44,276 nt of DNA from a virus: positions 1 to 44,276 of IMG/VR virus record IMGVR_UViG_3300044645_001430, one strand, 5' to 3'. The notes below the pieces were generated by a model. The model was not told where the DNA came from. It did no database searches and worked only from the letters and a program-made list of their open reading frames with translations. The translations under genes and the position numbers were made by a program. Shown in pieces: positions 6,341 through 13,593 of this stretch. How positions within the stretch are numbered: position 1 is the stretch's first letter; every line of letters begins with the position of its first letter.

Positions 6341-6584
6341 CGATGATCCGTTCAGTCGCGGGTGGATCGGACCCCACTGCTTCAAGCAGCCATCCGCATG
6401 TTCGCGGCGTTTATGGTTGCCGACATTGGGATTTTACGAGGGTTGTCAGCGACCTCTCGGACATCTCCCTGTTGCGAACATCTAGCCGTCGATTCCAGTT
6501 CGACCCCGTAGGTTTGAATGGAGTCGGGGGGTATCGAACCCCCGTGTGACCAGGTAGTATGCAAAGATCAACGATGTCGTTTGC
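6341..6584 (-). ncRNA. ssrA: circularly permuted two-piece tmRNA
   Basis: Read on the minus strand, the acceptor half comes first: a CATACTACC stretch, then a T arm (5-bp GGGGG/CCCCC stem, loop TTCGATA; 6543-6527), the 3' acceptor strand CGACTCC (6526-6520) and A73. After an 11-nt linker comes the coding half: GGGGTCG (6507-6501), then CTGGAATCGACGG, which nearly matches the tmRNA hallmark CTGGATTCGACGG. CTCGTAAAA and a tag reading frame follow. The acceptor halves pair over 7 bp with a G3-U70 wobble, the alanine identity element. The tag ATINAANMRMAA ends at TGA (6384-6382), which sits in the loop of a short CTGCT/AGCAG hairpin. No CCA is encoded. tmRNA rescues stalled ribosomes and tags unfinished proteins for proteolysis. 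Confidence 0.93.
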
Positions 6585-6944
6585 TCACTTGTTGAGGGTG
6601 AGCAGGTAGATTGTGTGGTTCACCACGCCCTTCATCTCGTCCCTGATGTTCTTGAGTTCCGTGTCTCCTTCCAACAACTCGTCGTCCAGCGATGTGAGGT
6701 AGGTATCGTACTGCTTGAGGAATGCCACGGGATCAGTCTCGCGGTAGTTGGTGAGGTGGATGCTGAATCCACCGCTGGAGAGGATCCTCCCCTTCTTTCC
6801 CATCATCGTCTCGATGAATGTGTCGATCAGGTCTCCTAGATCTCCGTATGCCTTTCCGAATGCCTCATGCTCCGCATACGATGTGGTCTGCCAATGGAAT
6901 ATGCGAAGTTGGTTCTGAAGAGTGAGAAGGCTGGTTATGTACAT
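6585..6944 (-). CDS. Dps/ferritin-fold protein (DUF5856-like)
   Basis: 119 aa. The segment LRIFHWQTTSYAEHEAFGKA followed by YGDLGDLIDTFIE matches the first helices of Dps and ferritin-like proteins, including the FHW motif and the later D/E positions that bind iron in Dps. Many T4-like phages carry this short family, annotated as DUF5856. It is shorter than Dps (about 160 aa), so a full ferroxidase cage is uncertain. It ends immediately before the tmRNA. Upstream, TATACATA (6970-6963) resembles the T4 late promoter TATAAATA and AGGAG gives the ribosome site, so late expression is possible. Confidence 0.65.
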   Translation of the reverse strand: MYITSLLTLQNQLRIFHWQTTSYAEHEAFGKAYGDLGDLIDTFIETMMGKKGRILSSGGFSIHLTNYRETDPVAFLKQYDTYLTSLDDELLEGDTELKNIRDEMKGVVNHTIYLLTLNK

Positions 6945-7273: not shown

Positions 7274-7289
7274 TGTGTGTTTCATAAAG

Positions 7290-7363
7290 CACACCCGACA
7301 GGACTCGAACCTGTGACTGACGGTTTAGAAAACCGTTACTCTATCCTACTGAGTTACAGGTGT
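7290..7363 (-). tRNA. tRNA-Arg(UCU)
   Basis: 74-nt cloverleaf: acceptor ACACCTG/CGGGTGT, D arm ACTC/GAGT, anticodon stem ACGGT/ACCGT with loop TTTCTAA (anticodon TCT, codon AGA), T loop TTCGAGT. No CCA is encoded. It stands alone, about 3.2 kb from the next tRNA gene. Confidence 0.95.
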
Positions 7364-7377
7364 ATGTGGAAGTTTGA

Positions 7378-7521
7378 CTATCGTGACTTCTTGGTCTTCT
7401 TCTGCACGGACTGCTTCTTCGGCTTCTTCCCGAAGATCCTGTCCCAGTTCTCCGACCACTTCTTGCGGTCAACGGGACGGGGAGAGTCTCCCTTCCCCGC
7501 GCTGTGTCTGCGGTTGTCCAT
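7378..7521 (-). CDS. very small basic protein
   Basis: 47 aa, lysine-rich, with a KKWSENWDRIFGKK core and a KKTKKSR tail. Short WD-RIFG-type proteins are common in phage accessory regions, but no function is known to me. The start is chosen at 7521 because GGAGG lies six bases upstream; the longer in-frame start at 7593 would run through the 7546-7579 hairpin. Confidence 0.55.
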   Translation of the reverse strand: MDNRRHSAGKGDSPRPVDRKKWSENWDRIFGKKPKKQSVQKKTKKSR

Positions 7522-7545
7522 GACATGCCTCCGTAAAACAGGAAC

Positions 7546-7579
7546 GGCAGGGAGGGGAGCGTCCTCCCCTTGCCCTGCC
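7546..7579 (-). terminator. strong GC-rich hairpin
   Basis: Two stacked perfect 7-bp stems (GGCAGGG/CCCTGCC outside, AGGGGAG/CTCCCCT inside) with a 2-nt bulge and a GACG loop. It is followed on the minus strand by GTTCCTGTTTTAC. It lies between the winged-helix gene and the 47-aa gene and probably terminates or attenuates the former's transcript. Confidence 0.6.
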
Positions 7580-7669
7580 GCCGTCTGGCTCATGCTAGAC
7601 GATGATCATCGGATAGATCGCGGTATCCGACTGCCGTTCCCACGCGACCGTTTCAACTATTCCCGTCAT

Positions 7670-7951
7670 TCAAAGACGGTAACGATTGCCCTGAGCGTCG
7701 AAGCCCCAGACGCGCTGACCAGGGTGGATGTCGGTGAGGCGGTAGACCGTCTCGCCACGCTTGTTGGTGTCCGTCTGGAGCATCCAGTTGCCGTAACGCT
7801 CGAACTGCTCACGGATGGACGAGACCATGGCGCGGAGGTTCCTCACGCCGAACTTGCTAAACGCCTGATCCTGCGTCAGGGTCTTGCCCGAACGGAGGTG
7901 GTTGATGACCTGACGGGTCTTGCTGAGGGTGGGCTTGGTTGCGGTAGCCAT
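7670..7951 (-). CDS. winged-helix / HTH DNA-binding protein
   Basis: 93 aa. LTQDQAFSKFGVRNLRAMVS is a helix-turn-helix of the phage type in which the recognition helix reads (V/I)xNLRAxxS. It is followed by a wing ending in TVYRL and a short C-terminal strand (RVWGFDAQGNRYRL). Such single-domain proteins often act as phage regulators, but the target is unknown. CAGGAG before the ATG at 7951 fixes the start; the open frame upstream is not preceded by a ribosome site. A good leftward promoter (8040-8067) lies about 90 nt upstream, so it may form its own early unit ended by the 7546-7579 hairpin. Confidence 0.65.
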   Translation of the reverse strand: MATATKPTLSKTRQVINHLRSGKTLTQDQAFSKFGVRNLRAMVSSIREQFERYGNWMLQTDTNKRGETVYRLTDIHPGQRVWGFDAQGNRYRL

Positions 7952-8039
7952 TGTCTGAATCTCCTGAAGGGCAGCATCACTTTGATGGTGAGGTTGGCGC
8001 ATCGGCTGCCCCCGTGCGCTCCTCAACTGTTGCTTCACA

Positions 8040-8067
8040 AGTCTAACCGATCCTGGGGTGGAGTCAA
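8040..8067 (-). promoter_or_regulatory. leftward sigma70-like promoter
   Basis: TTGACT (8067-8062), 16 nt, TAGACT (8045-8040) on the minus strand. It shares the TAGACT box and 16-nt spacing with the promoter at 13594-13621. It drives the winged-helix gene. Confidence 0.65.
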
Positions 8068-8121
8068 TACCACACGACCAAGAATCGAAAAGACTCTTTG
8101 GATCTTCTTATTGATTTGGAA

Positions 8122-8346
8122 TCAAACGCTGCGGATGGGGTTCGACGCAGAAACATTCAGGTACTCGGAGAAGTCCGACCCGTAGATGGTCTTCCTCTCC
8201 TCGGGAGACATCTGTCGCAGTTCAGCGACCATGTCCGTCCCGTATCGGGCAATGCGCTCTGCGGGTGTCATCCTGAAAAGTCGCACATCGAATGTGCGCT
8301 TTCCCCGAAAGTGATGGTTTAGCCATGTCGAATAGAATCCACTCAT
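8122..8346 (-). CDS. hypothetical small protein
   Basis: 74 aa with two repeated-looking halves (MTPAERIARYGTDMVAEL and MSPEERKTIYGSDFSEYL), each of the form M(T/S)P-(A/E)ER, then Y-G-(T/S)-D. An internal duplication of a short helical motif is therefore likely. No family recognised. The start at 8346 has GGAGGA upstream, inside the end of the preceding gene, so it is translationally coupled to the capsid-targeted protein. Confidence 0.6.
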   Translation of the reverse strand: MSGFYSTWLNHHFRGKRTFDVRLFRMTPAERIARYGTDMVAELRQMSPEERKTIYGSDFSEYLNVSASNPIRSV

Positions 8347-8347
8347 C

Positions 8348-8881
8348 TCAGTCTCCTCCACCTACTATGAACTTCTTGCCCTTCAACCGAGTGTTGAAGT
8401 CGCCAACATTCGTGCTGATTCCAGCACCGCCGATACGCGCCCTCTTGCCCTTCGGAACCCAGTCCGACTTGCCCGTGCCGTGGAACACGCTGCCGTGCTT
8501 CTTGGAGACGGTGAGGACGGTGTCTTGATCATGCTGCGCTCCTAGCGTCTTCAAGGTGCGAAGCGTCTCGCGATGCGCATTCGTGGGATTCTCTGCATGA
8601 CCGTAAAGTTGACCCGAATGGATCATGAAGGTCTTCTCCTTTACCTTCTTCTTCTCTCCATTGTGGTCTTCGATGTACTCGCCCTTGACGGGGACGGGGG
8701 TAAAGCCATGCCCCTTGAGGCTCTTGTGCAGTTCCTTCGTCCTCTTGTTGTTCTCGGCAGGAGAAAGATTCCCACGGCTTGCGGAGATGAACCCCACCAT
8801 ATGCCCTGCCTGTAGGTGACCGTGTAGGCGGGAAAGGGAACGGGATGCTGCCTCTGCTACGAACTCTCTGTATGTCTTCAT
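8348..8881 (-). CDS. putative capsid-targeted internal protein, DUF3293-like
   Basis: 177 aa. The N-terminus MKTYREFVAEA closely matches the capsid-targeting sequence of T4 internal protein III (MKTYQEFIAEA). In T4 that sequence sends proteins into the prohead and is cut after the Glu by protease gp21. By analogy this protein would be packaged and ejected into the host with the DNA; this is inferred. The rest (VGFISASRGNLSPAENNKRT, later FMIHSGQLYG and a VFHGTG tail) resembles DUF3293, a small enzyme-like family of unknown activity. The start at 8881 is fixed by AGAGGAGA. That ribosome site is in a hairpin overlapping a late-promoter-like TAAATA, as in T4 late genes embedded in early transcripts. 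Confidence 0.7.
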   Translation of the reverse strand: MKTYREFVAEAASRSLSRLHGHLQAGHMVGFISASRGNLSPAENNKRTKELHKSLKGHGFTPVPVKGEYIEDHNGEKKKVKEKTFMIHSGQLYGHAENPTNAHRETLRTLKTLGAQHDQDTVLTVSKKHGSVFHGTGKSDWVPKGKRARIGGAGISTNVGDFNTRLKGKKFIVGGGD

Positions 8882-8885
8882 GGAA

Positions 8886-8907
8886 ATCTCCTCTGTGGAG
8901 ATATTTA
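8886..8907 (-). promoter_or_regulatory. late-promoter-like box overlapping a hairpin that hides the ribosome site
   Basis: TAAATA (8907-8902, minus strand) overlaps by one base the 5' arm ATCTCC (8902-8897) of a hairpin whose 3' arm GGAGAT (8891-8886) contains the ribosome-binding site of the gene starting at 8881. Read-through RNA would be masked. RNA started from TAAATA would lack the 5' arm and be translated. Confidence 0.55.
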
Positions 8908-8921
8908 GCAAAGTTCAACCC

Positions 8922-9203
8922 CTACGAGAACAAGCGAGAGAACCAGGACTTTTCTTCCTCCTTGAACCAGGACTTTTCTTCCTCCTTGGGGGGAGAACCG
9001 ATGATCACCTCCTTGGGGCGAGTCCACTCGTACTTCGCATCTCCATGCTTGTCGATGATCACCACTCTGCACACAGTATTCGGAAAGACCATGATCCCAC
9101 TCTCCCATTGCTGTTTGATGTGGTTGCCGATCTGTTCCGACATTTCCTTGCTGAAGTCATGGTCAAAGTGGATGATGAACTTGAGGTCTTCGTTCTGCTT
9201 CAC
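8922..9203 (-). CDS. hypothetical protein with duplicated C-terminal octapeptide
   Basis: 93 aa. The first 70 residues look like a compact alpha/beta fold (DLKFIIHFDHDFSKEMSEQI, then CRVVIIDKHG). The tail carries KEEEKSWF twice in tandem, before SRLFS, caused by a perfect 24-bp tandem duplication in the DNA. No family recognised. Its start overlaps the next upstream gene by ATGA. The aromatic/charged repeat may be a docking tail; this is a guess. Confidence 0.6.
   Translation of the reverse strand: MKQNEDLKFIIHFDHDFSKEMSEQIGNHIKQQWESGIMVFPNTVCRVVIIDKHGDAKYEWTRPKEVIIGSPPKEEEKSWFKEEEKSWFSRLFS
8941..8988. repeat. perfect 24-bp tandem duplication
   Basis: Two identical 24-bp copies (8941-8964 and 8965-8988), in frame within the gene at 8922-9203. 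No mismatch between copies suggests a recent slippage event. Confidence 0.9.
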
Positions 9204-9601
9204 TTGAATAGTCCTTCCAATTCCTTCTTCAGTTCCGCGAGTCTTGCCTCATCCTCTTCCTTCTGTTTCTTTGCTTTTGCAATCTTAGACTCATCCTGTT
9301 CGGCAAGTTTGGTTTTTGCTTGCATCCTGTTCTTGTGCTCGAAGTAGTCGGTCAGTGGCTTCAGGGTTGCAATGCTGTTGCCGTGGAGGCTCAATTGGTA
9401 TGTGAGATATTCGGATTGCCGCTCAAGGTTGTAAATCCTTCTGGAGAGGTCGTCAAGTCCCTTGCCGTGAGTGAGCAGATTCCGTTCAAGGTCGTTCACC
9501 CTCGATGTCATCTGATGAACCCAGTAGTACGAAAGGATCATGTAGGTGTTCAAGACCAGTGAGATGCCGATGCCGATGAAGATCCATGTTTCAGTAGTCA
9601 C
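9200..9601 (-). CDS. membrane-anchored coiled-coil protein
   Basis: 133 aa. An N-terminal membrane segment (about 6-27) is followed by a long helical, charged region with heptad-like hydrophobic spacing (VNDLERNLLTHGKGLDDL, then YNLERQSEYL). A Lys/Glu-rich C-terminal helix ends the protein. The layout (one N-terminal TM plus a coiled coil) resembles inner-membrane spanin subunits and other phage membrane tethers, but no partner lipoprotein lies next to it. It overlaps the downstream gene by ATGA and the upstream gene by 11 nt. Function unknown. Confidence 0.6.
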   Translation of the reverse strand: MTTETWIFIGIGISLVLNTYMILSYYWVHQMTSRVNDLERNLLTHGKGLDDLSRRIYNLERQSEYLTYQLSLHGNSIATLKPLTDYFEHKNRMQAKTKLAEQDESKIAKAKKQKEEDEARLAELKKELEGLFK

Positions 9602-9839
9602 TTGTCTTTCCCCAGAAGTCCTGTGTTGATTCCCACAACGCTTGGTCGCGCTCTGTGCGAACTTTCTCGAGGTCGGCGCGGAGGCGTTTGATCTCCGATG
9701 CAGCCTCCATGCGCTCCTCTTGATTCATTTTGCAAGTCTCGCTCGTCATCACGCAGCAAACAGGATTGCCGAATGTTTCGTGGGTGACGAATAGCGGTTG
9801 TCGCTCTAGTCTATGCACGATGTCTGGTTTGTTGCTCAC
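9591..9839 (-). CDS. small coiled-coil protein, tandem family member 1
   Basis: 82 aa. The C-terminal half EIKRLRADLEKVRTERDQA is a short coiled coil, similar to EIARLTAERDEARRELC in the next upstream gene and to ADLARVTAERDEARRWVC in the one after it. The N-terminal half differs and has three cysteines. This kind of short (K/T)ERD-EA coiled-coil protein is common in phage accessory regions and has no known function. It overlaps its upstream neighbour by ATGA. Confidence 0.6.
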   Translation of the reverse strand: MSNKPDIVHRLERQPLFVTHETFGNPVCCVMTSETCKMNQEERMEAASEIKRLRADLEKVRTERDQALWESTQDFWGKTSDY

Positions 9840-10132
9840 TTGCCTTCCTCCTCGAAGCAGTCCCAGCCGCGCACTTTGGCGTAACCCTCGGGATTCAATG
9901 ATGGAACGTAGTAGTCCGCTCCCAATCGTGACTTCAACTGGCAGAGTTCCCGCCGCGCCTCGTCGCGCTCGGCGGTGAGGCGGGCGATCTCGTCGCCCTT
10001 GCTCTCCAGTTCGTCAGCAGCGTCCTCTATGTAGTGAATGTCGGTCTTGCAGAGCGAATCTGGCTCTGCGACGATCATGCGGAGACGAGCCACGATCTGC
10101 TCGGTGGTGATCTCGGGGAAGTCGCTCATCAC
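9836..10132 (-). CDS. small coiled-coil protein, tandem family member 2
   Basis: 98 aa. It has an N-terminal helical region (TTEQIVARLRMIVAEP), a coiled coil EIARLTAERDEARRELC, and a C-terminal motif VRGWDCFEEEGK that recurs as MRGWDCFAKEG in the upstream gene. The DNA encoding these parts is also nearly identical between the two genes, indicating a fairly recent duplication. ATGA overlaps on both sides. Function unknown. Confidence 0.65.
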   Translation of the reverse strand: MMSDFPEITTEQIVARLRMIVAEPDSLCKTDIHYIEDAADELESKGDEIARLTAERDEARRELCQLKSRLGADYYVPSLNPEGYAKVRGWDCFEEEGK

Positions 10133-10500
10133 CCCTCCTTTGCGAAGCAGTCCCAGCCGCGCATCTGTGCTTCGAGGAGAACCTTTGCTTCGGTGGAATC
10201 AACCAAATCGTGGGGTTTCCTTTCTGCGTAGACCGTCTTTCTGCACACCCACCGCCGCGCCTCGTCGCGCTCGGCGGTCACGCGGGCGAGGTCGGCGGTG
10301 CGCTGAGATAACGCAACGGTGATACCGTTTAGCACCTGCTGCGTGATGTCTCGATGTTCTATCGTCGCATTGCGGTGAACCGTCATTTGATCAAGAGCGG
10401 CGGTGCGCTGCGCGAGTTCGGCGATCAACTTCTCGCACTTTTCCGCGAGGATTTCGATGTTTTCGATGAGTTCTGTCTTGGTCATGTTCTGTGTCTGCAT
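10129..10500 (-). CDS. small coiled-coil protein, tandem family member 3
   Basis: 123 aa, mostly helical, with two related segments (AELAQRTAALDQMTVHRNAT and VALSQRTADLARVTAERDEA), so the coiled coil is internally duplicated. The C-terminus carries the family motif MRGWDCFAKEG. The start at 10500 is set by GGAGGAAC just upstream; the open frame continues into tRNA-Leu, which excludes the longer version. It is the first gene of the three-gene family and lies just downstream of two tRNA genes. Confidence 0.65.
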   Translation of the reverse strand: MQTQNMTKTELIENIEILAEKCEKLIAELAQRTAALDQMTVHRNATIEHRDITQQVLNGITVALSQRTADLARVTAERDEARRWVCRKTVYAERKPHDLVDSTEAKVLLEAQMRGWDCFAKEG

Positions 10501-10512
10501 GTGTTCCTCCAA

Positions 10513-10594
10513 TACCAGCGACAGGAGTCGAACCTGCACGATCTAGGATCCGGATGTTTTGAGCATCCTGCGTATGCCATTCCGCCACGCTGGC
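10513..10594 (-). tRNA. tRNA-Leu(CAA)
   Basis: 82-nt class II tRNA: acceptor GCCAGCG/CGCTGGT (G1-U72 wobble), anticodon stem GGATG/CATCC with loop CTCAAAA (anticodon CAA, codon UUG). The 14-nt variable arm has a GATC/GATC stem. T loop TTCGACT. No encoded CCA. Confidence 0.95.
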
Positions 10595-10598
10595 GCAA

Positions 10599-10862
10599 TA
10601 CCCCCCGTGGGACTCGAACCCACAACTGACGGATTACCTACCACTTCGGCTTTCGCCGCCTTCCGTTCGTGGTCTGGACTTTGCCTTCACCCGTTCTGGG
10701 TGCTTGCCGTCAAGTCTCTACACCTTCGCATCGCTGCGCTTGGCTCGGCGTTGTCTCGTCTTTCGACAGGGAGTTCACCGACTTTGACAAGATTCGATCC
10801 GTGCATTCCTGCACGGCAGTTCCATTTGAAAGTCCGTTACTCTACCATTGAGTTAGAGGGGC
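10599..10862 (-). tRNA. tRNA-Lys(UUU) interrupted by a group I intron
   Basis: The exons rebuild a 72-nt tRNA: acceptor GCCCCTC/GGGGGGT, D arm ACTC/GAGT, anticodon stem ACGGA/TCCGT, loop CTTTTAA (anticodon UUU), T arm GTGGG/CCCAC. A 192-nt insert splits the anticodon between positions 35 and 36. One-base-shifted splice sites would give loop CTTGTAA (Thr, UGU). The U-G pair in P1 and the presence of a separate tRNA-Thr(UGU) favour Lys. No other lysine tRNA is seen in the window. Confidence 0.88.
10637..10828 (-). ncRNA. group I intron, compact, in the tRNA anticodon loop
   Basis: 192 nt, minus strand. Core elements resemble those of tRNA-Leu (subgroup IC3-like) introns: GCCGAGCCAAGC (Q-like), GTGTAGAGACTTGACGGC (R-like) and AAGTCCAG (S-like), with P7 from GACTT/AAGTC. 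Hairpins: P2 CCGTGCA/TGCACGG with GGAA loop, P5 CGCA-GCGA-TGCG, P8 CACCC/GGGTG, P9 ACCAC/GTGGT enclosing GGC-GAAA-GCC. The 5' exon TTT pairs with GAA in the intron, giving the expected U-G at the splice site. The last base is G. No homing endonuclease gene is inside, so it would self-splice but not move by itself. Confidence 0.88.
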
Positions 10863-10869
10863 GACTCGC

Positions 10870-11139
10870 TCATCCGTTCAGCAACGAACCAACGGAGCGG
10901 AAGGACTTCACCGACTTCGCGTTGAACGACCTCCATTGCCCTGCCTCGACATCCCACACGGGAATGACATCGGGTCCGACCGACCCGTCCTCAGTCAGGA
11001 GGTTGGATGCGGGAACGGAAATGGGAGCATGGCTCTGCGACCGTGTGCATTTCATGGTGCGCTCCGTGCCGTCTGCCTTGGTGAACACCACCTCGCAGAT
11101 TCCACGGTGAAGGGACTCGACCATCTGTGTCTTTTCCAT
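10870..11139 (-). CDS. SH3-like phage protein (DUF2693-like)
   Basis: 89 aa. The pattern CEVVFTKADGTERTMKCT followed near the end by VWDVEAGQWRSFNAKSVKSF is typical of the small phage family DUF2693, predicted to form an SH3-like beta barrel. The family is widespread in phages but has no established function. GGAGG five bases before the ATG at 11139 fixes the start. It sits between the intron-containing tRNA-Lys and a small basic gene, so it is likely co-transcribed with the tRNAs. Confidence 0.65.
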   Translation of the reverse strand: MEKTQMVESLHRGICEVVFTKADGTERTMKCTRSQSHAPISVPASNLLTEDGSVGPDVIPVWDVEAGQWRSFNAKSVKSFRSVGSLLNG

Positions 11140-11140
11140 C

Positions 11141-11407
11141 TCAGCCTCCAGTTGCCTTGAGTTCGTCGAAAGTCATCATCGAAGCGGTGCGGCGTTCCCC
11201 TGTCGGGTTAGATACGGCAGACGGGGTTGCCCCCGACAGGGGAACATTCTGCTGTGCCGCCCTTGCCCTGTCGAACACCGAGACCTTCTTCTTGGGCTTC
11301 GATGCCTTGTCCTTGGCTAGAGCCAGGCTTGCCTTGTTCTTGTTCTTCCACCGAATCCTGGACTTGCGGTGCTTCCTCGCGACATTCCTAGCCTTGCTGT
11401 TGGGCAT
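11141..11407 (-). CDS. small basic protein containing an in-frame inverted repeat
   Basis: 88 aa, very basic at the N-terminus (KARNVARKHRKSRIRWKNKN) with a KPKKK stretch, suggesting nucleic-acid binding. The C-terminal part is encoded across a 13-bp perfect inverted repeat (11195-11244) that adds a stable hairpin to the mRNA. No family recognised. It overlaps the upstream gene by 20 nt and lies 1 nt before the SH3-like gene start. Confidence 0.6.
   Translation of the reverse strand: MPNSKARNVARKHRKSRIRWKNKNKASLALAKDKASKPKKKVSVFDRARAAQQNVPLSGATPSAVSNPTGERRTASMMTFDELKATGG
11195..11244. repeat. 13-bp perfect inverted repeat
   Basis: TTCCCCTGTCGGG (11195-11207) and its exact complement (11232-11244) flank 24 bp. 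The whole lies inside the coding region of the small basic protein and is a multiple-of-three-compatible block, so it may be an in-frame insertion of a palindromic element. Confidence 0.75.
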
Positions 11408-11735
11408 CGTTGCCTCCTCTGGTGTTCCTGATCGCGGTCACGATGTCGTTGCCGACATCGCTCAACTTTCGCTCCGCTATGGTAATCTCCCCACGGATGG
11501 AGTCAAGCCTCTTCATGCACTCTCCGAAAAGGATGTTTGGATCCTGATCCCTGAGGGCATGGAACTTTTCCATCTCGCTGATGTCGAACTCAGAAGGGAA
11601 GTGCCTGAGTCTGTCCCTTGCCCTCTTTCGGACTTCTCTTGGAACCTTTGGAGTCTGCTTTGGATCCATCAGTGCCAGCATGAAGTGCCGTGCGTTTCGT
11701 ATAGCGTTGAACATCTCCTCTGGAACCGTCATCAT
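11388..11735 (-). CDS. phage protein of BPSL0761-like type
   Basis: 115 aa. The segment NAIRNARHFMLAL followed by VPREVRKRARDRLRHFPSEF fits a small phage/prophage family (often named BPSL0761) with the pattern R-A-ExL...P-xx-vRxxAr-LLRHyP; the function is unknown. A second, coiled-coil half follows. The ATG at 11735 (or 11732) has AAGGAG upstream, placed inside the preceding gene. The 20-nt overlap with the downstream gene and 146-nt overlap with the upstream frame are longer than usual in this genome. Confidence 0.6.
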   Translation of the reverse strand: MMTVPEEMFNAIRNARHFMLALMDPKQTPKVPREVRKRARDRLRHFPSEFDISEMEKFHALRDQDPNILFGECMKRLDSIRGEITIAERKLSDVGNDIVTAIRNTRGGNDAQQQG

Positions 11736-11952
11736 CGAACTCCTTGTCGTATGTGAAGGGGTATCCCTTCCAATCCTTCTCGTCCACCTTGCAGACCGAA
11801 TAGACCTGCTCCAGTTTCATTCCCTTCCGCAGGGCATTCATCTCATCGCAGACCTCGACGGCAAGGGACTTCTTCCTGTAGAAGAGGTATCCCCCGCCGT
11901 CCTTGAGGAGGTGCTGCGTGTCTTCACGGATGGAGATTGCATAGCATGGCAT
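11590..11952 (-). CDS. hypothetical protein, possibly frameshifted at its 3' end
   Basis: 120 aa as it stands. The first 75 residues look genuine (MPCYAISIREDTQHLLKDGG, then VCDEMNALRKGM and KWVEKDW-like Asp/Lys/Trp residues). The remainder runs 146 nt into the next gene and is Lys/Ser/Gly-rich. A -1 shift near 11745 would end the protein at CGATGA, exactly the ATGA junction used by most neighbours. I therefore suspect a one-base insertion, a real frameshift, or a sequencing error. The start at 11952 avoids tRNA-Glu, whose 3' end is at 11960. Confidence 0.5.
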   Translation of the reverse strand: MPCYAISIREDTQHLLKDGGGYLFYRKKSLAVEVCDEMNALRKGMKLEQVYSVCKVDEKDWKGYPFTYDKEFDDDGSRGDVQRYTKRTALHAGTDGSKADSKGSKRSPKEGKGQTQALPF

Positions 11953-11959
11953 GGAAGAA

Positions 11960-12033
11960 TGATCTAGGTGGGAGTCGAACCCACGGTCTTTGGAGTGAAA
12001 GTCCAACGATTTAGCCAACTAATCTACTAGACC
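11960..12033 (-). tRNA. tRNA-Glu(UUC)
   Basis: 74 nt: acceptor GGTCTAG/CTAGATC, anticodon stem TTGGA/TCCAA with loop CTTTCAC (anticodon TTC, codon GAA), T arm GTGGG/CCCAC with loop TTCGACT, A73. No encoded CCA. Confidence 0.95.
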
Positions 12034-12178
12034 GAACTGGTGGGACAACCTTGGAACATTCGGTAGGGCTTTGCAAGTACCCAATCCGTTTTCCGCGAAA
12101 CCCACAATGGAGTGGTGTTCTCCATTTTCTCCTCTACTTGAGCCTTTGCGCATTACAGGCAAGAGGAAGGTTTTTGAA
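12034..12178. other. 145-bp gap inside the tRNA cluster, nothing recognised
   Basis: No tRNA cloverleaf or ORF is supported. A 7-bp hairpin (AATGGAG/CTCCATT, loop TGGTGTT) and a bulged CCTCT/AGAGG stem are present. It may be a processing leader between two tRNA groups. Confidence 0.4.
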
Positions 12179-12250
12179 AGCCCCCACTCAGAATCGAACT
12201 GAGGTCTGATGATTACAAATCAACGGTAATAGCCGCTATACTATGAGGGC
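12179..12250 (-). tRNA. tRNA-Thr(UGU)
   Basis: 72 nt: acceptor GCCCTCA/TGGGGGC, anticodon loop TTTGTAA (anticodon TGT, codon ACA), T arm CTCAG/CTGAG. The anticodon stem GTTGA/TCATC has one U-U mismatch and the D stem is only 3 bp. No encoded CCA. Confidence 0.9.
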
Positions 12251-12260
12251 AGACACACAA

Positions 12261-12334
12261 TCGGGACAGCAGGATTTGAACCTGCGACATCTCGCTCCCA
12301 AAGCGAACGCTCTACCAAACTGAGCCATGTCCCG
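12261..12334 (-). tRNA. tRNA-Pro(UGG)
   Basis: 74 nt: acceptor CGGGACA/TGTCCCG, D arm GCTC/GAGC, anticodon stem TTCGC/GCGAG with loop TTTGGGA (anticodon TGG, codon CCA), T arm GCAGG/CCTGC, A73. No encoded CCA. Confidence 0.95.
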
Positions 12335-12343
12335 TCTCTGAAG

Positions 12344-12426
12344 TTGATCGTGTAGGACTTGCACCTACGAAGGTCGAAGACCAAGAGTTTTACAGACTCT
12401 CCCCTTTGCTGCTCGGGAAACGATCA
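12344..12426 (-). tRNA. tRNA-Tyr(GUA)
   Basis: 83-nt class II tRNA: acceptor TGATCGT/ACGATCA, D stem CCC/GGG, anticodon stem AGAGT/ACTCT with loop CTGTAAA (anticodon GTA), a long variable arm, T arm GTAGG/CCTAC, A73. No encoded CCA. Confidence 0.95.
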
Positions 12427-12432
12427 GTCGAA

Positions 12433-12505
12433 TAGGACTGGTTGGAATCGAACCAACGACCTCTCCCTTATCAAGGGAATGCTCTGCCTACTGAGCCACA
12501 GTCCA
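12433..12505 (-). tRNA. tRNA-Ile(GAU)
   Basis: 73 nt: acceptor TGGACTG/CAGTCCT with a U1-U72 mismatch, D arm GCTC/GAGC, anticodon stem TTCCC/GGGAG with loop TTGATAA (anticodon GAT), T arm GTTGG/CCAAC, A73. No encoded CCA. Confidence 0.93.
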
Positions 12506-12506
12506 A

Positions 12507-12577
12507 CTGGTCCGACAGGATTTGAACCTGTAACCCCGTCCTAACAGGACGGCGCACTACCGTTGTGCTACAGACCA
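12507..12577 (-). tRNA. tRNA-Asn(GUU)
   Basis: 71 nt: acceptor TGGTCTG/CGGACCA, anticodon stem CCGTC/GACGG with loop CTGTTAG (anticodon GTT), T arm ACAGG/CCTGT, G73. No encoded CCA. Only one base separates it from each neighbour. Confidence 0.95.
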
Positions 12578-12578
12578 A

Positions 12579-12650
12579 TGTGAGGAGAAGGAATCGAACC
12601 TTCGCTGACGGATTTTCAGTCCGCTACTCTACCTACTGAGTTATCCCCAC
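12579..12650 (-). tRNA. tRNA-Phe(GAA)
   Basis: 72 nt: acceptor GTGGGGA/TCCTCAC, D arm ACTC/GAGT, anticodon stem GCGGA/TCCGT with loop CTGAAAA (anticodon GAA), T arm GAAGG/CCTTC, A73. No encoded CCA. Confidence 0.95.
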
Positions 12651-12657
12651 GGAAAAG

Positions 12658-12728
12658 TTGCCCAACCTGGACTCGAACCAGGACAACGAGAATCAGAGTC
12701 TCGGGTGCTACCATTACACAATCGGGCA
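12658..12728 (-). tRNA. tRNA-Gln(CUG)
   Basis: 71 nt: acceptor TGCCCGA/TTGGGCA, anticodon stem CGAGA/TCTCG with loop CTCTGAT (anticodon CTG, codon CAG), T arm CCTGG/CCAGG, A73. No encoded CCA. Confidence 0.95.
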
Positions 12729-12740
12729 GTTATCACAGAG

Positions 12741-12814
12741 GGTGACTGGCGGGACTTGAACCCGCAACGGGGAGAATCACAATCTCCTGAACTATCCATT
12801 TGTTCTACAGTCAC
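12741..12814 (-). tRNA. tRNA-His(GUG)
   Basis: 74 nt: acceptor GTGACTG/CAGTCAC with C73 (typical of histidine tRNA), D arm GAAC/GTTC, anticodon stem GGAGA/TCTCC with loop TTGTGAT (anticodon GTG), T arm GCGGG/CCCGC. The base before G1 is T, so the extra G-1 is not encoded. Confidence 0.95.
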
Positions 12815-12816
12815 AA

Positions 12817-12887
12817 TAGCGAGTATGGGAGTCGAACCCATTTCCCTAGATTATGAGCCTAGTGTGTTGCCGTCTCACTCACTCGCA
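12817..12887 (-). tRNA. tRNA-Met(CAU)
   Basis: 71 nt: acceptor TGCGAGT/ACTCGCT with a U1-U72 mismatch, 3-bp D stem GTG/CAC, anticodon stem CTAGG/TCTAG with loop CTCATAA (anticodon CAT), T arm ATGGG/CCCAT, A73. The stem lacks the three G-C pairs of initiator tRNA. A lysidine-modified tRNA-Ile(CAU) cannot be excluded. Confidence 0.88.
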
Positions 12888-12888
12888 A

Positions 12889-12960
12889 AGCGGACGATGG
12901 GATTTGAACCCACGACCATCGGTTTGGAAAACCGAGACTCTACCTCTGAGTTACATCCGC
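12889..12960 (-). tRNA. tRNA-Gly(UCC)
   Basis: 72 nt: acceptor GCGGATG/CGTCCGC, D arm ACTC/GAGT, anticodon stem TCGGT/ACCGA with loop TTTCCAA (anticodon TCC, codon GGA), T arm GTGGG/CCCAT (one G-U), U73 as is usual for glycine tRNA. No encoded CCA. Confidence 0.95.
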
Positions 12961-13052
12961 ACGAAAGAGCGTTATCGCAGAATGCGCTCCCCTCTGCCGT
13001 CCTTGTCGTTTCCCCAGGTAGGTGGACGGAACCTATTTAGTCAGGACTTGAC

Positions 13053-13421
13053 TCACAATCCGAATGTGTCTTCGTTGTCTGCCATGCACCCGCCGCCGTT
13101 CTTGCACTTGGAACGCTCCTCAAGGCGGTCGATGCGGTCGTGCAGACCACGGATGGACTCGTTGCTGTAGTTTTCCTTGCGGTCATCGTTGCGACCCTTC
13201 TCCTCGCTTTCGAGCCATGCCTTCGTCTCCTGAAGGCGGAACCACAGGTATCCCGCGAACGACAAAGCAGCCGCGACGAGGCAGTAGTTTGCCTTCGTGG
13301 CAGAGTTCACCGTCTCAGGTGAGAGGAAGGTGAACCAGAAGAAGCCGATGCCGAAAAGGAGGGCAAGCAGACCAGTCACGCTCTTGCCGCTTCTTTCGCT
13401 GTCAGTAACAAACCTAATCAT
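13053..13421 (-). CDS. small membrane protein with coiled-coil tail
   Basis: 122 aa with two membrane segments (about 16-35 and 46-63). A helical, charged tail (SNESIRGLHDRIDRLEERSK) and a CKNGGGC motif near the C-terminus follow. No family recognised. The layout resembles phage membrane proteins that recruit or block other proteins at the inner membrane. The start at 13421 has GGAG eight bases away, and the open frame upstream is not supported. It lies between tRNA-Gly and tRNA-Ile(UAU), inside the tRNA transcription unit. Confidence 0.6.
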   Translation of the reverse strand: MIRFVTDSERSGKSVTGLLALLFGIGFFWFTFLSPETVNSATKANYCLVAAALSFAGYLWFRLQETKAWLESEEKGRNDDRKENYSNESIRGLHDRIDRLEERSKCKNGGGCMADNEDTFGL

Positions 13422-13503
13422 GTCGATGTCTCCATAGTCAGTGGATCCTTGTAGTCTCCGAACCGTGCGTGGATCCACATGGCGCACGGTCGGTTGTTGA
13501 TGT

Positions 13504-13576
13504 ATGCCGTACAGGAATCGAACCTGTTCTTACCTGTTTATAAATCAGGCTGAGGATGCCAAGACCTCCCACGGCA
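13504..13576 (-). tRNA. tRNA-Ile(UAU)
   Basis: 73 nt: acceptor TGCCGTG/TACGGCA, anticodon loop TTTATAA (anticodon TAT, codon AUA), T arm ACAGG/CCTGT with loop TTCGATT, U73. The anticodon stem CCTGA/ACAGG has an A31-A39 mismatch, so the decoding assignment is slightly less secure. It is the first gene after a consensus promoter. No encoded CCA. Confidence 0.88.
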
Positions 13577-13593
13577 CATTGACTGTCTGCATC

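Follow-up and report, generated by a model that had tools for sequence, protein, structure and literature searches.

A compact permuted tmRNA gene of a T4-type phage and a group of related phage genes with RNA-bearing linkers

The RNA that frees stuck ribosomes, tmRNA, is encoded in permuted form by a T4-type phage present as a 44,276-base virus record in IMG/VR (the window, i.e., the whole stretch of DNA analyzed). Here, we report that this is a real, compact permuted tmRNA gene, and we place it in a set of at least 58 distinct related phage genes (the window's included, identical genes removed). Loci that were cut by a contig end or misfit the regular expression (e.g., L230, L243, L287, and L291-L293) were excluded from the 58, and gene counts are counts of relatives, not of independent events. 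A phage with its own tmRNA could pick its degradation tag and keep ribosomes free in infection.

The Rfam model RF04321 (tmRNA_permuted) matched the minus strand at 6578-6382 with 57.1 bits (cut-off, 47 bits) over the full model (positions 1-213), close to the bottom of the range observed for the permuted genes scored (54.5-113.4 bits), and ARAGORN called a permuted tmRNA at the same locus. A sequence-only reading had proposed a phage-encoded permuted tmRNA, to be doubted if no tmRNA model matched above threshold; both programs bore the proposal out. Its 7-bp acceptor stem with G3-U70, T-arm, and 11-nt linker were all read in the sequence, as follows (minus strand throughout; by sequence reading where no other basis is named).

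6382..6578, minus: permuted tmRNA gene; starts at the P2 5' end in the acceptor piece and finishes with the stop codon of the tag (RF04321, ARAGORN)
6519..6578, minus: acceptor piece, no CCA encoded
6578-6573, 6564-6561, and 6553-6548, minus: P2 5' strands, in the acceptor piece
6543-6527, minus: T-arm
6526-6520, minus: acceptor 3' strand CGACTCC
6519, minus: A73
6508..6518, minus: linker TTCAAACCTAC, 11 nt
6501..6507, minus: 5' acceptor strand GGGGTCG, with G1 at 6507; pairs 7/7 with 6526-6520, G3-U70 included
6460..6487, minus: P2 3' strands GGCTAG, GCAA, and GATGTC; pair with the acceptor piece (RF04321 structure line)
6419..6459, minus: proposed pseudoknot PK1; stem 1 CGAG(A)GG/CCCTCG, stem 2 GCTGACA (6450-6444)/TGTCGGC (6425-6419)
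6382..6408, minus: predicted tag frame GCC GCG AAC ATG CGG ATG GCT GCT TGA (ARAGORN; 58-gene frame test)
6377..6389, minus: possible hairpin CTGCT-TGA-AGCAG, stop codon in the loop
6310..6341, minus: terminator-like hairpin, 14 pairs, then TTTTC (-23.7 kcal/mol, z -5.2)
6585..6944, minus: upstream neighbor of the DUF5856 family (PF19174, E 1.6e-19; phrog_858), directly before the tmRNA gene

Read directly, the acceptor/T-arm half lies upstream of the coding half, the T-stem GGGGG/CCCCC consists of five G-C pairs closing the loop TTCGATA, and the 5' acceptor strand GGGGTCG is followed by AACTGGAATCGACGG. A pattern for the permuted arrangement, composed post hoc, had a single match in the window and zero in 100 shuffles. 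When the strand was folded uncut, the minimum-energy structure contained the T-arm hairpin and lacked the acceptor stem. The same virus recurs in two further IMG/VR contigs (100% identity over 3714 nt and 99.98% over 11406 nt), so that a chimeric assembly is unlikely. The terminator-like hairpin just downstream is a possible precursor 3' end, which a terminator scan did not include among its predictions; no sigma-70-type promoter was found near the tmRNA gene. None of the genes in the 58-gene set, which contains the window's, encodes CCA, and neither does any of the 14 tRNAs listed in the window (7289-13577, minus strand).

The acceptor stem was paired 7/7 in 57 of the 58 genes, with G1 placed by script to maximize pairs, and the base pairs of its lower part vary. 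The pairs of P2 are present in the window and recur in the same layout, with one pair changed, in L216; its folding energy was no better than that of shuffles (270/2000 and 60/300 were at least as good). Comparison supports the proposed PK1: a stem 2 of 5-7 pairs could be drawn in 58/58 genes, ending 10-11 nt before the 8-codon tag frame in a search that allowed spacings of 9-12 nt, and its pairs differ by lineage (GTAAC/GTTGC, GCAAC/GTTGC, GTCAA/TTGAC, and GCTGACA/TGTCGGC). Taken singly the stem is weak, being matched by 62/1000 shuffles for the window and by 39-263/1000 for five relatives.

The tag called by ARAGORN is AANMRMAA-stop, 8 residues that start with alanine and end in AA-stop, and comparison across the set likewise supports this predicted frame, the first codon of which is GCC in 41/58 genes and GCT in 17/58. 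Tags in the set were AAPMRMAA (16 genes), ANQLAMAA (13), ANELAMAA (7), and others, with ends (e.g., in L068, L208, and L227) that were mostly M-x-M-A-A or L-x-M-A-A; the search pattern already contained the tag end (AA-stop and the bases after it), whose conservation therefore adds no independent support. The sequence-only reading had instead taken the tag to be the 12 residues ATINAANMRMAA, starting at GCA 6420. That frame is also open in the window, a similar one occurs in some relatives, L208-type DNA aligns with it, and ARAGORN gives 12 residues in six relatives (L191, L195, L227, L231, L237, and L241), reading ANIKAAPMRMAA in the last four of these. Against it, GCA 6420 lies within the proposed stem 2 of PK1, and of the 58 genes, 27 have the corresponding GCA in frame, 28 have it out of frame, and 3 lack it; moreover, ARAGORN called 41 of the 58 genes and preferred 8 residues in 28, the window's included, with a longer tag in 13. 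Because the GCA at its start is out of frame in 28/58 related genes, we regard the 12-residue tag as improbable and favor the predicted 8-residue AANMRMAA as the more likely one, short of proof. The tag codons (6408-6394 in the window, and in relatives) can also form a hairpin that takes in the first codons. Where ATTGC is followed by C or T (41 genes), the base at tag position 12 varies with the first codon, GCT going with A (17 genes) and GCC with G (24). Such a first-codon hairpin would be odd for a tmRNA.

Nine proteins of the window were scanned. Six had strong matches to tail/baseplate families; one of 663 residues had a weak tail-family match (E 0.0002) plus families of unknown function, one matched families of unknown function alone, and one had no match. 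The baseplate wedge protein matched 2368 records, all at <60% identity, and it shared 31.5-34.2% identity with the 20 listed phage records, which include cyanophages and pelagiphages. Judged by these similarities, the virus is a T4-type phage distant from the named ones, in line with the T4-type assignment made earlier from sequence. Elsewhere in the window, an open reading frame at 8348-8911 (minus strand) matches the S-adenosylmethionine lyase family (PF23780); phage S-adenosylmethionine lyase is an anti-restriction gene.

The host had been suggested to be of alphaproteobacterial type. All three clade models scored below their cut-offs on the window (alpha_tmRNA, RF01849, 24.6 bits versus 50; beta_tmRNA, RF01850, 36.3 versus 84; cyano_tmRNA, RF01851, 40.4 versus 70), and, because the alpha model scored lowest, that host type is not supported and was rejected. 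The same scores bear on whether the gene was recently captured from an alphaproteobacterial host. According to passages of PMC11915505, the source of RF04321, Alphaproteobacteria, Betaproteobacteria, and Cyanobacteria typically have the permuted form, which is compatible with such a capture; yet the alpha score (24.6 bits; cut-off, 50) was the lowest of the three, and the closest genes found were phage genes, bacterial genomes having been searched with one linker pattern. We consider a recent capture very improbable.

On sequence grounds, the predicted permuted tmRNA of the window is probably functional, and we are confident, short of certainty, that it would work as a two-piece tmRNA. The minus strand would be transcribed after the DUF5856 gene, and host tRNA 3'- and 5'-processing enzymes would cut after A73 and before G1, taking the 11-nt linker out. 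The host would then add CCA, the two pieces would stay joined through the acceptor stem and P2, G3-U70 would allow charging with alanine, and, with host SmpB as partner, AANMRMAA would be appended to chains on stalled ribosomes. The host protein enters this scheme because SmpB was found in none of 37 records (the window's and 36 others) and none of 50 subfamily records, all of them fragmentary; trans-translation would therefore need the host's. That same result would also suit an inert or inhibitory copy, an RNA that ties up the SmpB of the host or acts as a competitor of its tmRNA and does no tagging; such a role has been suggested for the tag-less tmRNA-like RNA of phage DS6A, and expression of an RNA of that kind inhibits tmRNA, according to passages of PMC4131195 and PMC11915505. 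A decoy would, however, have no need of the alanine-first tag frame that is kept in 58/58 genes (the tag end, for the reason given above, carries no independent weight here), and we judge it an unlikely explanation beside a tagging tmRNA.

The 11-nt linker had been suggested to mark a possible minimal permuted form, which the comparison refutes. Linkers of 5-7 nt occurred in 18 of 56 viral contigs with the permuted pattern (5-35 nt allowed; L014 and L049, both counted among the 56, belong to the window's virus), and all 45 bacterial matches were shorter than the window's in a search restricted to 3-16 nt (6-7 nt in 42 and 8-9 nt in three, measured from A73 to G1 with CCA counted where encoded). 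The window's linker is short but not minimal. Within the 58-gene set, linkers measured 6 nt (5 genes), 11 nt (the window), 39 nt (3), 71-74 nt (8), 95-99 nt (37), and 122-173 nt (4), and the 49 genes with linkers of 71-173 nt hold a conserved RNA there, the window's copy being without insert. Two different-looking types were distinguished: type A in 45/58 genes (29 with the exact core and 16 assigned by hand from the listing) and type B in 4 (3 plus L249, likewise assigned by hand).

L183:2235-2305, L227:679-775, and L231:10622-10718: examples of type A linker RNA (32 other distinct linkers in alignment A1)
L068:1065-1231, L274:1766-1938, and L249:6704-6825: type B insert, GGTTAG...CTAACC, at the same linker position

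A tmRNA T-arm lies upstream of 33 of 34 distinct type A core matches (the other, L243, ends at the contig edge) and of all 6 distinct type B matches; hence, as far as the two search patterns show, both types are confined to the tmRNA linker. The conserved RNA is probably folded, as the alignment of type A suggests. Its model, drawn on 35 distinct linkers, has two hairpins with pairable loops (CTGCAA/TTGCAG; CTGTAA/TTACAG in L231), a short closing stem, and an optional third hairpin. Paired cells made up 90.1% (shuffle mean, 83.5), and both-side changes occurred at 15 of 29 pairs (shuffle mean, 7.6), values that none of 500 shuffles reached in either case. Slid versions of the structure had both-side changes at no more than 8 pairs, a comparison biased in favor of the structure, which was drawn from the same 35 sequences. 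The number of further pair types was not unusual (29 versus 26.7; 65/500 shuffles as high). Column pairs that fit poorly were 27-61 (unpaired in 24/35), 20-30 (17/34), 75-97 (16/29), and 13-36 (15/35), and, on reading the alignment, rows L182 and L184 seem one column off in the closing stem.

In 19 long-linker loci, the linker had no Rfam match at cut-off, and L227, scanned up to E 10, returned just tmRNA models and low-scoring matches with no ribozyme; a known self-cleaving ribozyme is accordingly not supported. Titles and abstracts in the literature, a scope outside which most subscription papers and all preprints fall, yielded no folded linker RNA in a phage tmRNA. We suggest tentatively, and with more doubt than conviction, that the linker of this subfamily is a home for folded RNAs that either promote cutting of the precursor (by self-cleavage or by recruiting a nuclease) or are freed as phage RNAs, the window representing an insert-less form. 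If functional, the linker RNAs of the relatives would be a new way to process a split RNA gene or to load cargo onto it.

The form of the tmRNA gene varies among phages that share the DUF5856 neighbor. ARAGORN found a one-piece tmRNA near the same gene in two of 60 related loci (L083 and L085; L063 and L064, also among the 60, are the window's own virus), and in L083 this scored 130.8 bits with RF00023. The one-piece tmRNAs of L083 (4426-4760) and L085 sit beside the DUF5856 gene and carry the tag ANTQYRLAA. The permuted tmRNA of L068 was missed by ARAGORN and scored 85 bits with RF04321; the Rfam scan covered 15 of the 60 DUF5856-linked loci, and other ARAGORN misses are possible. Because ARAGORN is partly blind to this group (41/58 called), phage tmRNA counts based on it are probably low.

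That phage tmRNAs are rare, and mostly of the one-piece form, is broadly correct and was already known: passages of PMC9004378 give a tmRNA in 402 of 18,146 phage genomes, with 53/133 unique genes two-piece by ARAGORN. They also describe permuted tmRNAs in T4-type phages, which changes the earlier remark that one in such a phage is notable. With blastn (E 1e-5), the window's gene and two relatives had no match in 50,697 phage records. RF04321 matched three of five named phages; SRB7757 and S-SRM01 had no match. The three, Melnitz, Mosig, and HTVC008M, are marine T4-type phages with a permuted tmRNA as in the window (113.4, 93.6, and 90.6 bits, respectively) and a baseplate wedge protein that shares 32.7-33.9% identity with the one in the window. 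They differ in encoding CCA and in having linkers of tens of nucleotides or more (by eye), whereas the window has no CCA and an 11-nt linker, and their tags are ANDNYVPVDYALAA, GEDNFALAA, and ANFNEYALAA, respectively, compared with the predicted AANMRMAA.

Bacterial permuted tmRNAs with short linkers were mostly from Rhodocyclaceae and Accumulibacter by record title and encode CCA in 43/45 cases, unlike the window's gene, whose beta-model score of 36.3 bits, far under the cut-off of 84, also sets it apart from a bacterial beta tmRNA. The closest-looking IMG/VR genes, L216, L221, and L248, have the type of PK1 stem 1 found in the window, no CCA, and the tag AAPMRMAA versus AANMRMAA, and differ in a 6-nt linker and another PK1 stem 2. 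In L248 the DUF5856 gene lies 605 nt from the tmRNA gene, and L216 and L248 share another neighbor with the window. Other genes of the set (L068, L208, and L227) have the window's architecture and no CCA, and long RNA-bearing linkers mark 49/58. The window's gene is of an already-known kind; what is new is the surrounding group of at least 58 related phage genes and their linker RNAs.
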